Source: Candidatus Aquabacterium excrementipullorum
GTDB lineage: Bacteria; Pseudomonadota; Gammaproteobacteria; Burkholderiales; Burkholderiaceae_C
Direction: 5' to 3'
DNA length: 64,000 bases
Assembly: GCA_019112875.1 (NCBI GenBank)
Contig: DXIO01000036.1
Coordinates: 1 to 64,000, forward strand
The position numbers and the translations under genes are program-made. Shown in pieces: positions 52,456 through 59,199 of the stretch. Each line of letters opens with the position of its first letter. The stretch's first letter is position 1. Under the pieces are notes generated by a model, which searched no databases, was not told the origin of the DNA, and was given only the letters and a program-made list of their open reading frames with translations.

Positions 52456-53772
52456 ATGACTCAACTCACCCGTGAACAGCAAATCGCTGCCCTGGAAAAG
52501 GACTGGGCCGAAAACCCCCGTTGGAAGCTCGTCAAGCGCGGCTACTCCGCAGCTGACGTGGTTCGCCTGCGCGGCAGCCTGCAGCCCGAGTACACGCTGG
52601 CCAAGCGCGGCGCTGAAAAGCTGTGGGAAAAGGTCAACGGCGGTGCCAAGAAGGGCTACGTGAACGCTTTCGGCGCCATCACCGCCGGTCAAGCCATGCA
52701 ACAGGCCAAGGCTGGCCTGGAAGCCGTGTACCTGTCGGGCTGGCAAGTCGCCGCCGACGGCAACACCTCGGAAACCATGTACCCCGACCAGTCGCTGTAC
52801 GCGTACGACTCGGTGCCCACGATGGTTCGCCGCATCAACAACACGTTCAAGCGTGCTGACGAAATCCAATGGTCGCGTGGCATCAACCCCGGCGACGAGC
52901 AGTTCGTCGACTACTTCCTGCCCATCGTCGCTGATGCTGAAGCCGGTTTCGGTGGTGTTCTGAACGCCTTCGAACTGATGAAGAACATGATCACGGCTGG
53001 CGCCGCTGGCGTGCACTTCGAAGACCAACTGGCCGCTGTGAAGAAGTGCGGTCACATGGGTGGCAAGGTGCTGGTCCCCACGCAGGAAGCCATCGAAAAG
53101 CTGATCGCTGCTCGTTTCGCTGCCGACGTGCTGGGCGTGCCCACCATCGTGCTGGCTCGTACCGACGCTGAAGCCGCCAACCTGATCACCTCCGATCACG
53201 ACGCCAACGACAAGCCCTTCCTGACGGGCGAGCGCACGCAAGAAGGCTTCTACCGCGTCAAGAACGGCCTGGAGCAATCCATCAGCCGTGGCGTGGCCTA
53301 CGCTCCCTATGCCGACCTGGTGTGGTGTGAAACCGGCGTGCCTGACATCGGCTTCGCCCGTGAATTCGCGCAAGCCGTGCACGCCAAGTGCCCGGGCAAG
53401 CTGCTGTCGTACAACTGCTCGCCTTCCTTCAACTGGAAGAAGAACCTGGACGACAAGCAGATCGCCAAGTTCCAGCAAGACCTGTCGGACCTGGGCTACA
53501 AGTACCAGTTCATCACGCTGGCTGGTATCCACATCAACTGGTACAACACGTTCCAGTTCGCCCACGCTTACGCACGCGGCGAAGGCATGAAGCACTACAC
53601 CGAAATGGTGCAAGAGCCGGAATTCGCAGCGCGCGAAAAGGGCTACACCTTCGTGTCGCACCAACAAGAAGTGGGCGCTGGCTACTTCGACGACGTGACC
53701 ACCGTGATCCAAGGCGGCTCGTCTTCCGTGAAGGCCCTGACCGGCTCGACCGAAGAAGACCAGTTCCACTGA
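52456..53772 (+). CDS. aceA: Isocitrate lyase AceA
   Basis: The 438-residue enzyme splits isocitrate into succinate and glyoxylate. The catalytic motif [17 protein letters not shown] is near residue 195. [41 protein letters not shown], and [13 protein letters not shown] are conserved (first two seen in part). Codon use near the start shows more A/T endings than its neighbours, as in highly expressed genes. It has its own promoter and terminator. No malate synthase gene is adjacent. Confidence 0.97.
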
Positions 53773-53822
53773 TCTGCGCGTTGATGGGGCTGCTGTTGAG
53801 GCAGCGGTCTCGTCGGCAGAAC

Positions 53823-53848
53823 AAAGGCACCCCGAGGGGTGCCTTTTT
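53823..53848 (+). terminator. Intrinsic terminator of aceA
   Basis: AAAGGCACCCC (53823-53833) pairs with GGGGTGCCTTT (53836-53846) around a 2-base loop and runs into five T. Confidence 0.93.
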
Positions 53849-54107
53849 CATTTCAATCCAAGAGGCGAATTGCGTACCGATGTACACCCGCATCGGGGCG
53901 GTTGTGCCCTTGCATCACTTGCTCACCCCTTAAGTGGGAGATTTCCCCGAGATGTAGAAAAAATGTGTGATTTTTTTCAGGATATGGCTACATTGACAAA
54001 ACGGAGGGGCGATTCCTGAAGCCGGTCAAGACAGCGCGAAAGAAGCGTCTGCGGCCCGGTCGGAGTGCAGGAATCGGCCAGTCAATCAATGCCCTACAGA
54101 GGTCGCC

Positions 54108-54764
54108 ATGACAGTCAATGACATCCTGAAAATGATGTTGGTGTTCGTTCATTTCTTTGCCAGCGCAGTCGCCGTGGCCACGATCTTGCGAACGGATTTC
54201 CTCATCCTCTCGTACTACACCAGCCCATTGACGCGCAAGGCCGTGGATCGCATCCACAGCGCCAAATCCGTGGTGAGTGCATCGTTGACCGTGCTGTGGG
54301 TTTCAGGGGTTGCCATCTGCGTGCAGGGCTACCTGAGCGATCCCGCCTATCTGTTGAACCAGAAGCTGTGGCTCAAGGTCATGGTGGTGCTCACGCTTAC
54401 CGCCAATGGCTGGTTCCTGCACCGCTTTGCATTCGATGCCATCCGCCGTGGTGCGCGCCTGTGCGATGCGATGCCGCATCAACGCGCCACCCTCGTGTTG
54501 ATGGCCAGTGTCAGCTCCACCAGCTGGATCTTCGCGTGCTTCCTGGGCATTGCCCGGGCGCTGAACAACAAGCACAACTTCGCCGGATTGCTCAGCCTCT
54601 ATCTGCTGATGCTCGGCGTGTCGCTGGTGGCCTCGTTGGTGTTGACGAACCTGCTGGGGCGAGTGGCTCGTGGCGGCTCGCGTGATGCGCAGCGCTGGCA
54701 GGCTCGGGTCAAGGCGCTCAAGCACCGATTGGATGCGGGGCAGGAGAGTGAGCTGCAGGTGTGA
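54108..54764 (+). CDS. Membrane protein of unknown function
   Basis: The 218-residue protein has about five hydrophobic segments (about 8-28, 52-75, 87-105, 125-145, 155-180) and a basic C-terminal tail. VHFFASAVAVATILRTDFLIL and the polar TRKAVDRIHSAKSVV are the most distinctive parts. I do not recognise a family with certainty; it resembles small membrane proteins related to the CopD/DUF2214 kind. The ATG at 54108 follows AGAGG. It is followed by tRNA-Leu on the opposite strand. Confidence 0.7.
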   Translation: MTVNDILKMMLVFVHFFASAVAVATILRTDFLILSYYTSPLTRKAVDRIHSAKSVVSASLTVLWVSGVAICVQGYLSDPAYLLNQKLWLKVMVVLTLTANGWFLHRFAFDAIRRGARLCDAMPHQRATLVLMASVSSTSWIFACFLGIARALNNKHNFAGLLSLYLLMLGVSLVASLVLTNLLGRVARGGSRDAQRWQARVKALKHRLDAGQESELQV

Positions 54765-54785
54765 TTTGGCGTAGCCCACTGCGCA

Positions 54786-54877
54786 TGGTGCCCCGGGCCG
54801 GGATCGAACCGGCACGCCCCTTTGCAGGAAGCGGCGGATTTTAAGTCCGCAGTGTCTACCAATTTCACCACCGGGGC
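54786..54877 (-). tRNA. tRNA-Leu (UAA)
   Basis: Read leftward from 54877 the acceptor GCCCCGG pairs with CCGGGGC before an encoded CCA. The anticodon loop is CTTAAAA (anticodon UAA) between CGGA and TCCG. A long variable arm, as in class II tRNAs, is present, and the T-loop reads GGTTCGATCC. Length is 92 bases with CCA. Confidence 0.97.
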
Positions 54878-54923
54878 ACGGGCCACAGTGTAGCGGCCTC
54901 AGCATGAAAAATTTCTGGCTGAC

Positions 54924-54953
54924 TTGCGAAGCGGCTTTAAAGTGATGTATAGT
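54924..54953 (+). promoter_or_regulatory. Promoter of the tRNA-Gly/tRNA-Cys unit
   Basis: TTGCGA (54924-54929) and TATAGT (54948-54953) are 18 bases apart, about 70 bases before the tRNA-Gly 5' end. Confidence 0.6.
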
Positions 54954-55029
54954 CTAGGTCTTCGCTGATCACTGCTTGCAACAAGGCAAGTTGCTCAAAA
55001 AAGAGTGGTGAATCGTTGTGCGAAGGCAT

Positions 55030-55105
55030 GCGGGATTAGCTCAGTTGGTAGAGCGATACCTTGCCAAGGTATAGGTCGAGAGTTCGAGCCTCTTATCCCG
55101 CTCCA
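55030..55105 (+). tRNA. tRNA-Gly (GCC)
   Basis: The acceptor GCGGGAT pairs with ATCCCGC before encoded TCCA. The anticodon loop is TTGCCAA (anticodon GCC). The D-loop and T-loop (GAGTTCGAGCC) are canonical. Length is 76 bases with CCA. Confidence 0.97.
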
Positions 55106-55117
55106 GCTTCTTCAAAA

Positions 55118-55149
55118 GGGAAGCCAACGCCAAGTTGGCTTCCCTTTTT
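55118..55149 (+). terminator. Intrinsic terminator between tRNA-Gly and tRNA-Cys
   Basis: GGGAAGCCAAC (55118-55128) pairs with GTTGGCTTCCC (55134-55144) around a 5-base loop, followed by five T. Confidence 0.88.
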
Positions 55150-55195
55150 CATCACAGGCCCGATTTCTGCTCGGGAATGTGAAAGCGGCTTCAGA

Positions 55196-55269
55196 GGCGC
55201 GGTAGCAAAGCGGTTATGCAACGGATTGCAAATCCGTCTAGCCCGGTTCGACTCCGGGCCGCGCCTCCA
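55196..55269 (+). tRNA. tRNA-Cys (GCA)
   Basis: The acceptor GGCGCGG pairs with CCGCGCC before encoded TCCA. The anticodon loop is TTGCAAA (anticodon GCA) between GGA and TCC. Length is 74 bases with CCA. A terminator precedes it, so it needs read-through or its own promoter. Confidence 0.96.
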
Positions 55270-55345
55270 TCTCCCCCAAGATCTCTTTGTTGATGGCCGA
55301 TCAGCGCGGCATGTTGGCCGCGCCCTGCTGGCGTGTGGTGGTGTT

Positions 55346-55375
55346 GCGACACAAAGATGTGCGGGCGGCTACAAT
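55346..55375 (+). promoter_or_regulatory. Candidate promoter of the thrS attenuator
   Basis: GCGACA (55346-55351) and TACAAT (55370-55375) are 18 bases apart. Transcription would start near 55382, about 90 bases before the leader peptide start. The 377 bases between tRNA-Cys and thrS hold only this promoter, the leader peptide and the attenuator. Confidence 0.5.
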
Positions 55376-55471
55376 GGGGCATCGCGCCGTTTCGCCACAC
55401 CGTGGGTGTGTGATCCAAGCATCTGGCGGCGCTCTTTGCATCGGTAAGGAACGGGGAAAGGCATTCTGGTT

Positions 55472-55519
55472 ATGACACCGCGAACTTCGACCACCACCTT
55501 CACCTCGACCGAGGTCTAG
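55472..55519 (+). CDS. Threonine-rich leader peptide of thrS
   Basis: The open frame encodes 15 residues, [15 protein letters not shown], and ends at TAG (55517-55519). Seven of 15 codons are Thr (ACA, ACT, five ACC), three of them consecutive. GGGGAAAGG ends ten bases upstream of the ATG as a ribosome site. Placed between a promoter and a terminator ahead of the gene for threonyl-tRNA synthetase, it looks like the sensing element of a ribosome-mediated attenuator: shortage of charged tRNA-Thr would stall the ribosome in the Thr run. Confidence 0.75.
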
Positions 55520-55527
55520 TCGGCTGG

Positions 55528-55569
55528 CCGCTGCTTTCGCATTCCTTTCCTCCTTATCAGAAAGCGCGG
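55528..55569 (+). promoter_or_regulatory. Antiterminator stem of the thrS attenuator
   Basis: CCGC-T-GCTTTC (55528-55538) can pair with GAAAGCGCGG (55560-55569): 10 base pairs with one bulged T and a 21-base loop. It uses the left arm of the terminator, so the two structures exclude each other. The upstream arm begins 9 bases after the leader stop codon. GCGAA inside the leader (55480-55484) could pair with TTCGC (55536-55540) when no ribosome stalls. Confidence 0.6.
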
Positions 55570-55587
55570 CACCTACCGCGCTTTTTT
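55561..55587 (+). terminator. Attenuator terminator before thrS
   Basis: AAAGCGCGG (55561-55569) pairs with CCGCGCTTT (55576-55584) around a 6-base loop and is followed by a run of T to 55587. It lies 60 bases before the thrS start. Confidence 0.88.
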
Positions 55588-55646
55588 GTTGTCTGCGCAT
55601 CCCGACCTCGTCCAATCGCCTTCATATACCCAACAGGTTGAACACC

Positions 55647-57566
<1,920 letters not shown>

Positions 57567-57573
57567 GGCGGGA

Positions 57574-57609
57574 GCGTGCTTTGCCTGTGCCGTAAAGGCC
57601 AAAGCACGC
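57574..57609 (+). other. Long hairpin in the thrS-infC spacer
   Basis: GCGTGCTTTG (57574-57583) pairs with CAAAGCACGC (57600-57609), with an inner CCT/AGG pair. No T run follows, so it is not a normal intrinsic terminator. It lies in the infC 5' leader and may be a processing or translational control element. Confidence 0.5.
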
Positions 57610-57691
57610 GCCAGCCGGCATTGTCTGGGTGCGTGAACATTGTTAACTGGTGCGGTTGCCGCCGGGCGGCCGTGGCCTGAAGGAATTCGAC

Positions 57692-58240
57692 ATCGCTAAC
57701 TTCTTTGACCGCCGTACGCGCAATGATGAGCGCAAGCATCGGCTGAACCGTGAAATCACTGCGCCTGAAGTCCGTCTGAACGGCATGGAGAACGAACCCC
57801 TTGGCATCGTCAGCATCCAGGACGCCCTGCGCATGTCTGCCGAGGCCGATGTGGACCTGGTTGAGATTTCCGCCACGGCGGATCCTCCTGTTTGCCGCCT
57901 GATGGACTACGGCAAGTTCAAGTACCAGGAGCAGAAGAAGGCGCACGACGCCAAGCAGAAGCAGAAGGTCATCGAAGTCAAGGAAGTCAAATTCCGTCCC
58001 GGCACGGACGAAGGCGACTACCAGATCAAGCTGCGCAACCTGCGCCGCTTTTTGGAAGATGGCGACAAGGGCAAGGTCACGCTGCGTTTCCGCGGTCGTG
58101 AGATCACCCACCAGGAGCTGGGCATGCGCCTGCTCGAGCGTGTCCGTGATGACCTGACCGATGTCTCCGTCGTCGAGAACATGCCCAAGCTGGAAGGGCG
58201 CCAGATGATCATGGTGCTCGGCCCGAAGAAGAAAAAGTGA
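57692..58240 (+). CDS. infC: Translation initiation factor IF-3, ATC start
   Basis: From the ATC at 57692 the protein has 182 residues, starting [21 protein letters not shown] after the initiator (the core is [15 protein letters not shown]). AAGGAA lies seven bases upstream of the ATC, which is a much better ribosome site than any before the in-frame GTG at 57650. Rare start codons (AUU, AUC, AUA) are a known feature of infC and allow IF-3 to repress its own translation. [19 protein letters not shown] and [15 protein letters not shown] are family motifs. It is the first gene of infC-rpmI-rplT. Confidence 0.93.
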
Positions 58241-58437
58241 TGCAAAGACGGCTTCGGCCGTCGTAGAATGTCAGCTTCGCCCAAAATTGCTTTGGACGAA
58301 AGACACCGGGCAGGCGGTTTGGTCATCGCCTGCCACGGACGAGTGCAAAAACCAAGCACTTGATAAGTTTCTGGGGGCCATCAAGACGCGGAGCAGTTTC
58401 GCGGCGCCTGGCAGGAACAACGTAAAAGGAGCAGAAC
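58241..58437 (+). other. infC-rpmI leader with hairpins
   Basis: A GACGGC/GCCGTC stem with a TTCG loop (58247-58262) follows the infC stop, then a -10-like TAGAAT (58264-58269) and an AGTGC/GCACT hairpin (58342-58360). In E. coli the rpmI leader binds L20 for autorepression; this spacer could play that role. I see no ORF in it. Confidence 0.4.
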
Positions 58438-58641
58438 ATGCCCAAAATGAAGACCAAGAGCAGCGCGAAGAAGCGTTTTCGCGTGCGTCCGGGTGGTACC
58501 GTCAAGCGCGGTCACGCCTTCAAGCGCCACATCCTGACCAAGAAGTCCACGAAGACCAAGCGCCAACTGCGCGGCGTCGCCAACGTGCACGAGACCAACC
58601 TGGGCCACATCGCCCAGATGCTGCCTTTCGCCGGCCTGTAA
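58438..58641 (+). CDS. rpmI: 50S ribosomal protein L35
   Basis: The 67-residue basic protein has the L35 signature [20 protein letters not shown] and [16 protein letters not shown]. It is assembled early into the 50S subunit. The ATG follows AAAGGAGC. The gene lies between infC and rplT in the usual order. Confidence 0.98.
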
Positions 58642-59094: not shown

Positions 59095-59199
59095 ATGCTG
59101 CTCCGGCCCACGCCGGCCGAGGTTCACCCCTCGGACGGCCAGGCCGGTGACTCAAAGGCCAACGGTTCGTTGGCCTTTTTTTTCGACACAAGACCATGA
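59095..59199 (+). CDS. Small ORF crossing the terminator and overlapping the pheS start
   Basis: An ATG at 59095 opens a 34-residue frame ([15 protein letters not shown]... ending AFFFDTRP) whose TGA overlaps the pheS ATG (ATGA). Its three consecutive Phe codons are the T run of the terminator at 59154-59183. pheS lacks a clear ribosome site of its own, so coupling to this frame would help explain its translation. Its own ribosome site is weak. It may be a regulatory ORF for phenylalanyl-tRNA synthetase or a chance reading of the leader. Confidence 0.35.
59117..59134 (+). other. Leader hairpin upstream of the pheS terminator
   Basis: CCGAGG (59117-59122) pairs with CCTCGG (59129-59134) around a 6-base loop, with further GGCC blocks on both sides. 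It precedes the terminator by 20 bases. Confidence 0.45.
59154..59183 (+). terminator. Intrinsic terminator between rplT and pheS
   Basis: AAAGGCCAACG (59154-59164) pairs with CGTTGGCCTTT (59168-59178) around a 3-base loop, followed by T to 59183. It ends 12 bases before the pheS ATG, so it must limit read-through from the ribosomal protein operon into pheS. Confidence 0.92.

Follow-up and report, generated by a model that had tools for sequence, protein, structure and literature searches.

Candidate ribosome-mediated transcription attenuator with a threonine-rich leader ahead of thrS in Aquabacterium and other betaproteobacteria

How is the synthetase gene thrS controlled in Candidatus Aquabacterium excrementipullorum, where a short threonine-rich frame and a terminator-like hairpin precede it? 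The window analyzed here is a stretch of 64,000 nucleotides (contig DXIO01000036.1, positions 1 to 64,000), and an earlier note on it had proposed ribosome-mediated transcription attenuation of thrS that senses charged tRNA-Thr. We consider it highly likely that the stretch is a classical attenuator of this ribosome-mediated type, and the proposal is supported by the conservation of threonine codons, by covariation of the terminator, by the fit of leader, linker and terminator to one another at the family and order levels, and by thrS-linked matches to a model of the leader.

The features of the locus are collected in Table 1. The downstream ORF is one that we take to be thrS, encoding threonyl-tRNA synthetase (ThrRS); the closest named ThrRS among the matches listed are those of Roseateles terrae and a Rubrivivax MAG, at 84% identity. 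The window has genes for tRNA-Gly and tRNA-Cys a short way upstream, the tRNA-Cys gene ending at 55269, and a −10-like site would place the start of transcription approximately 90 nt before the leader ORF. Such an element, in a looser form, occurs 64–104 nt before the leader ATG in 23 of the 27 genus loci that have leader and terminator, and the exact string GCTACAAT occurs 40–140 nt before the ATG in 16 of the 27. Further along the window a second arrangement was noticed by eye, with a 10-bp hairpin and, directly after it, eight T in a row (59154-59183) just before pheS (59196) and a short frame from 59095 that reads FFF within that T run and overlaps the start of pheS; this may be a phenylalanine attenuator or chance.

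Table 1. Coordinates of the features at the thrS leader locus in the window.
Feature	Coordinates	Strand	Details and basis
Promoter-like site GGCTACAAT	55346-55375	+	−10 element TACAAT at 55370-55375; consensus scan
Shine-Dalgarno-like GAAAGG of the leader ORF	55456-55461	+	Sequence; GAAAGGCA invariant in 29/29 aligned genus sequences
Leader peptide ORF	55472-55519	+	ATG at 55472, stop TAG at 55517-55519; 15 codons, 7 Thr
Segment 1, leader codons predicted to pair with segment 2 in ribosome-free RNA	55480-55495	+	MFE fold of the window transcript
Small hairpin ACCTC-GACC-GAGGT, 3' end of the ORF	55502-55515	+	Fold; kept in the leaderless L020
Segment 2, antiterminator 5' arm	55524-55538	+	GCCGC at 55527-55531 and GCTTTC at 55533-55538; duplex with segment 3; near-invariant in the genus
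Segment 3, terminator left arm, common to the antiterminator	55559-55569	+	Terminator and duplex prediction
Intrinsic terminator	55559-55587	+	11-pair stem 55559-55586, 6-nt loop, T run to 55587; sequence and covariation
Presumed thrS (threonyl-tRNA synthetase), putative controlled gene	55647-57566	+	ORF; N-terminus conserved in relatives

The claim of a 15-codon frame with seven threonine codons is confirmed (Table 1). Among the 953 frames of 10–25 codons on both strands of the window, this is the sole frame to reach both 6 Thr and 35% Thr, and a covariance model of the leader, built from 29 genus sequences, makes one strong match in its own genome (E 3.5e-39), the next-best reaching E 0.07. 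A frame as short as this one would presumably be easily overlooked in annotation.

The spread of the leader was followed outward from the genus. Forty-two genus genomes, the own one included (41 relatives), were searched with ThrRS, a few giving only weak or partial matches, and the best 30 loci were read, own included, leaving 29 relatives. Leaders beginning MTPRT stand in 28 of these 29 same-genus loci, with 4–9 Thr each (a coarser rule picks MTPRT in 26 of the 29). Within the genus alignment the Shine-Dalgarno-like element, the ATG, segment 2 and the terminator are near-invariant, and the spacer before the terminator varies in both sequence and length. The one locus without the leader, L020, keeps the hairpin and the terminator. 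A terminator-like hairpin without a threonine-rich leader of the MTPRT type is likewise seen at L097, L098, L102, L103, L104 and L108. These seven loci count against the reading, and the attenuator may have decayed there; five of the seven genomes do not exceed 3.4 Mb.

Beyond the genus, matches to the leader model were obtained in 100 of 120 genomes of the family and in 44 of 200 of the order. All 14 order matches with E up to 1e-7, the own one included, are found immediately before thrS. In at least 11 of the 44 order genomes the best match is away from thrS, which tells against the reading; these matches are all weak and were judged to be chance (G201, G205, G229, G253, G257, G259, G266, G269, G271, G273 and G344), as were weak extra matches in the family genomes G073, G087 and G140. 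A plasmid collection that was also searched gave no match.

The gene thrS was located independently, and upstream regions were drawn from genomes with and without model matches. The family sample has 112 regions and omits seven of the 118 other family genomes. The model search listed 28 of these regions, the order search contributed 4, and starting from thrS gave 80, including 19 in genomes that the model does not match. The order sample of 98 regions comprises 80 from the thrS side, taken as the best-scoring places listed among 194 genomes with thrS, and 18 chosen via the model; among these 18, L085 lies away from thrS and two repeat regions already drawn from the thrS side. Twenty regions, the best-scoring of 138 genomes with thrS, represent other orders of the class. 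MTPRT leaders are present in 89/112 family, 14/98 order and 0/20 class regions, and frames with an early Arg-Thr step in 97/112, 41/98 and 1/20 on the forward strand vs. 11, 13 and 2 on the reverse strand. With Thr-rich ORFs defined as having at least 4 Thr and at least 28% Thr, the family gives 56/112 forward and 0/112 reverse, and the same richness test for other amino acids gives none above 5/112. In the 80 order regions drawn from the thrS side, 7 Thr-rich ORFs occur forward and 1 reverse; since alanine also reaches 7, enrichment in the order rests on the Arg-Thr rule (27/80 forward, 9/80 reverse). In the other orders of the class, none of the 20 loci read has a Thr-rich frame.

Named carriers of the leader include Roseateles terrae (MTPRTTTTPTKV), Acidovorax delafieldii (MTPRTTSEMLTGR), Cupriavidus necator (MTPRTTTAGKRQ), Massilia (MTPRTTTKVSK) and Burkholderia sp. 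(MTPRTLTETTSERR), and Vogesella (MFKRTTTTRISR) exemplifies the diverged leaders kept in other betaproteobacterial families. Of the 79 named loci with enough upstream sequence, 53 have a short frame in which Arg-Thr or Leu-Thr comes early, some of these frames being clearly chance, and 26 have none. As to the neighborhood, a tRNA-Val (GAC) gene lies just upstream of the leader in 20 of 25 order loci scanned (e.g., L184, L196, L212, L227, L237 and L250) and in 1 of 10 family loci scanned, the window having tRNA-Gly and tRNA-Cys instead; at L065 two upstream tRNA genes with equal Rfam scores lie at 179-252 and 380-453.

The conserved threonine codons that a functional leader peptide would show are found at all three levels, in that ACN triplets after codon 5 are concentrated in the reading frame of the leader: the counts for frames 0/1/2 are 118/1/2 in the genus (own included), 220/12/24 in the family and 80/15/9 in the order, where leaders that do not start MTP are counted from codon 2, so that their counts include the Thr used to pick them. 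The third base of the threonine codons varies from codon 6 onward, and genus leaders change length in whole codons only (14–16 codons). Because the in-frame ACN bias coexists with varying third bases and with length changes of whole codons, selection appears to act on translation, and this signature, together with the genus-invariant GAAAGG, would fit translation of the leader ORF.

Codons 2–5 behave differently. In the window they occupy 55475-55486, and in the family they are near-fixed as nucleotides (ACA in 88, CCG in 89, CGA in 84 and ACT in 78 of 89 leaders), which counts against a plain attenuator, as threonine sensing alone would not need them. In addition, 21 of the 89 family MTPRT leaders have only 2 or 3 Thr, and the CGA-ACN (Arg-Thr) step recurs across distant betaproteobacteria (MTPRT, MFRTS, MSFRTT, MFKRTT), even where few Thr codons remain. 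It is conceivable, if rather unlikely in our estimate, that the leader holds a second signal besides the counting of threonine; CGA-Thr might serve as a programmed slow site for stalling, or the signal might be an RNA element through which ribosome entry is set or which pairs with the terminator arm. If so, the attenuator would sense one Thr codon at a fixed position or integrate a second cue.

Downstream of the frame, the intrinsic terminator described in the earlier note is present, with a distance of 39 nt from the stop codon to the stem in place of the 42 bases given there. The alternative stem also stands as to its shared left arm and its bulge, and its length is 11 bp rather than 10: GCCGC(T)GCTTTC (55527-55538) pairs with the terminator left arm with one bulged T and a duplex energy of −19.5 kcal/mol. 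By fixed rules, leader and terminator are found together in 27/30 genus loci (own included), 94/112 family regions and 40/98 order regions, a few of the family and order frames being doubtful. The leader before the terminator is only modestly more folded than shuffles (mean z of −1.25, −1.04 and −0.65), which tells against the reading. Pairing of the linker with the terminator arm beats that of a shuffled linker in 27/27 genus, 79/94 family and 27/38 order loci.

Covariation of the two stems, which the earlier note had named as a check, is strong for the terminator and weak for the antiterminator. In a set of 95 sequences chosen for matching the leader model, double changes occur in 11 of the 11 terminator pairs, with 33 cells vs. 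3.1 in shuffles, a value reached by 0 of 500. The direct antiterminator columns (segments 2:3) give 42 cells vs. 31.3 in shuffles (6/500), and the number of antiterminator pairs with double changes is reached in 57 of 500 shuffles. At the genus level covariation is uninformative (0/29 pairs with double changes) because the leader is too conserved.

These elements would act together as follows. RNA polymerase would start upstream of the leader ORF, and a ribosome would translate the threonine-rich leader behind it. If charged tRNA-Thr runs short, this ribosome would stall on the Thr codons (codons 5–9), covering segment 1 and freeing segment 2, which would then pair with segment 3 so that no terminator forms and transcription continues into thrS. 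With ample charged tRNA-Thr, the ribosome would finish and leave, allowing segment 1 to pair with segment 2 (alternatively, a ribosome at the stop codon would cover part of segment 2), and segments 3 and 4 would form the terminator, ending transcription before thrS. While the ORF, its in-frame threonine codons, the terminator, the shared arm and their conservation are computed, as is the mutual fit in family and order, we infer the start of transcription, leader translation, stalling, termination and derepression. As the arrangement of leader and terminator is kept in many betaproteobacteria, many of them probably tune thrS by sensing charged tRNA-Thr during leader translation.

To characterize the proposed switch, equilibrium folding was used to stand in for co-transcriptional folding, and ribosome footprints of 12, 15 and 18 nt gave similar results. 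In the ribosome-free folded transcript of the window, leader codons 4–8 pair with RNA beyond the stop codon, and the pairing of ORF and linker peaks at codons 4–8 in the genus and 3–4 in the family. The terminator left arm pairs with upstream RNA at 0.11 in the free RNA vs. 0.99–1.0 with a ribosome on codons 5–9. With a ribosome at the stop codon the antiterminator pairing is still 0.61–0.81 in the window, and hence termination must rely on ribosome release in the proposed scheme.

We define the switch score as the gain in pairing between the left arm and upstream RNA on going from free RNA to RNA with a ribosome placed on codon 6. The family mean of 0.39 vs. 0.08 for a shuffled linker is higher in 79/93 loci (p=5e-13), and it is higher than with the linker of another genome (0.18) in 72/93 (p=1e-8). 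For the order, the score of 0.24 exceeds that of the shuffled linker (0.03) in 28/38 loci (p=1e-5) and that of another genome's linker (0.04) in 28/38 (p=3e-5). The genus shows no such win: 0.26 vs. 0.07 for the shuffled linker, higher in 16/27 (p=0.10), and vs. 0.16 for the linkers of other genomes, higher in 12/27 (p=0.75). Scores above 0.2 are reached at 8/27 genus, 67/94 family and 21/38 order loci, and the free RNA of genus loci already favors the antiterminator (mean 0.76).

The switch score is the third form of the test, and which test to use had not been settled in advance. In plain duplexes of ORF and linker, the native ORF binds more weakly than a shuffled one in 27/27 genus loci and more strongly in just 36/94 family loci, and swapping the partners of the plain duplexes in family and order indicated no covariation of 1:2 or 2:3. 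A revised swap test in the order, with the loop included and swaps made between families only, gives modest results for 2:3 (27/38, p=2e-3) and 1:2 (24/38, p=0.02), and 23/38 (p=0.24) for the expected ORF-linker pairs. Because a locus was included only if its leader and its terminator could be detected (two duplicates in the order, and a family locus whose linker is below 15 nt, were dropped), the test speaks to mutual fit and not to frequency, and its p-values overstate certainty since related genomes are treated as independent.

It is important to consider other readings of the same locus. A translated threonine leader might regulate thrS mainly without the terminator, through thrS translation, a Rho site or re-initiation, the hairpin being secondary. 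In line with this, a stricter scan finds no terminator at L144, L147, L148 and L157 despite their MTPRT leaders (a looser rule finds one), and the distances from stop codon to terminator and from terminator to thrS vary widely. The frequency with which fixed rules recover frame and terminator together in family and order, the covariation of the terminator and the fit of the linker to both leader and terminator nevertheless make us regard this as very improbable. We place even less weight on the suggestion that the terminator merely ends the upstream tRNA transcripts and that the short ORF is chance, which would be in keeping with the tRNA-Gly and tRNA-Cys genes just upstream in the window and the tRNA-Val gene in many relatives; it is contradicted by the conservation of the frame and its codon bias across family and order, and the distinct −10-like element that follows tRNA-Cys and precedes the leader, seen in most genus loci as noted above, also argues against it, so that we give it practically no credence.

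A protein-mediated mechanism has more to recommend it in that the gene is thrS: ThrRS would bind a tRNA-Thr-like structure in the leader and autoregulate thrS as in enteric bacteria, the Thr codons being incidental, and the near-fixed codons 2–5 could be a contact site for protein or for RNA. Yet the in-frame ACN bias, the varying third bases and the whole-codon length changes point to selection on translation, and ARAGORN and Rfam, as general scans rather than operator-specific ones, gave no tRNA-like match inside the leader. We therefore think autoregulation of this kind very improbable, and ribosome-mediated attenuation remains the preferred reading.

The closest parallels to such an attenuator are the classical amino-acid attenuators of enteric bacteria (trp, his, leu, ilv, phe and thrL-thrABC). 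Common to both are a short ORF rich in cognate codons, an intrinsic terminator, an alternative stem that shares an arm with it and, on the reading proposed here, the stalling of a ribosome as the switch. The enteric examples control biosynthetic operons, whereas the leader described here would control the gene of an aminoacyl-tRNA synthetase. The enterobacterial threonine operon leader of Rfam has no match in window positions 53000-58500 or at 14 loci, and in the same regions Rfam 15 holds no matching family for the leader (matches to HPnc0260 are weak, below the gathering score and mostly overlap tRNA genes, and were set aside as not relevant). Ribosome-mediated attenuation of a synthetase operon has long been known from pheM-pheST of E. 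coli, which resembles the proposed thrS attenuator in its synthetase target and differs in sensing Phe rather than Thr, in the gene and in the clade. In E. coli, thrS itself is subject to translational autorepression by ThrRS; the same gene would thus be under the control of a 5' leader in both cases, with the E. coli system depending on a translational repressor protein and having no Thr-rich frame. T-box leaders bind tRNA directly and have no leader peptide, and no T-box was matched by Rfam up to E 1 in window positions 53000-58500 or up to E 0.5 at the 14 loci. No description of a thrS leader peptide in betaproteobacteria was found in the open-licence literature, which lacks most subscription journals. 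A study of the attenuation of amino acid and aminoacyl-tRNA operons by Lopatovskaya et al. in 2010 (Mol Biol 44:128) may already predict a betaproteobacterial thrS leader.

Autoregulation by ThrRS is mentioned in PMC2965389. According to PMC2494555, thrS of Firmicutes is under T-box control, which likewise amounts to transcriptional control of thrS by tRNA charging. For Streptomyces lividans, of a different phylum, PMC8079986 puts forward a weak thrL that would precede thrS, with threonine sensing inferred for it, so that a leader peptide would lie before thrS there too. If the attenuator operates as proposed, betaproteobacteria would control thrS in a third way, as compared with the T-box of Firmicutes and the ThrRS repressor of enteric bacteria, and many environmental and industrial species would carry a readable sensor of threonine starvation. 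The leaders would also provide an extensive natural collection of diverging attenuators for tracking how terminator, antiterminator and leader codons change.
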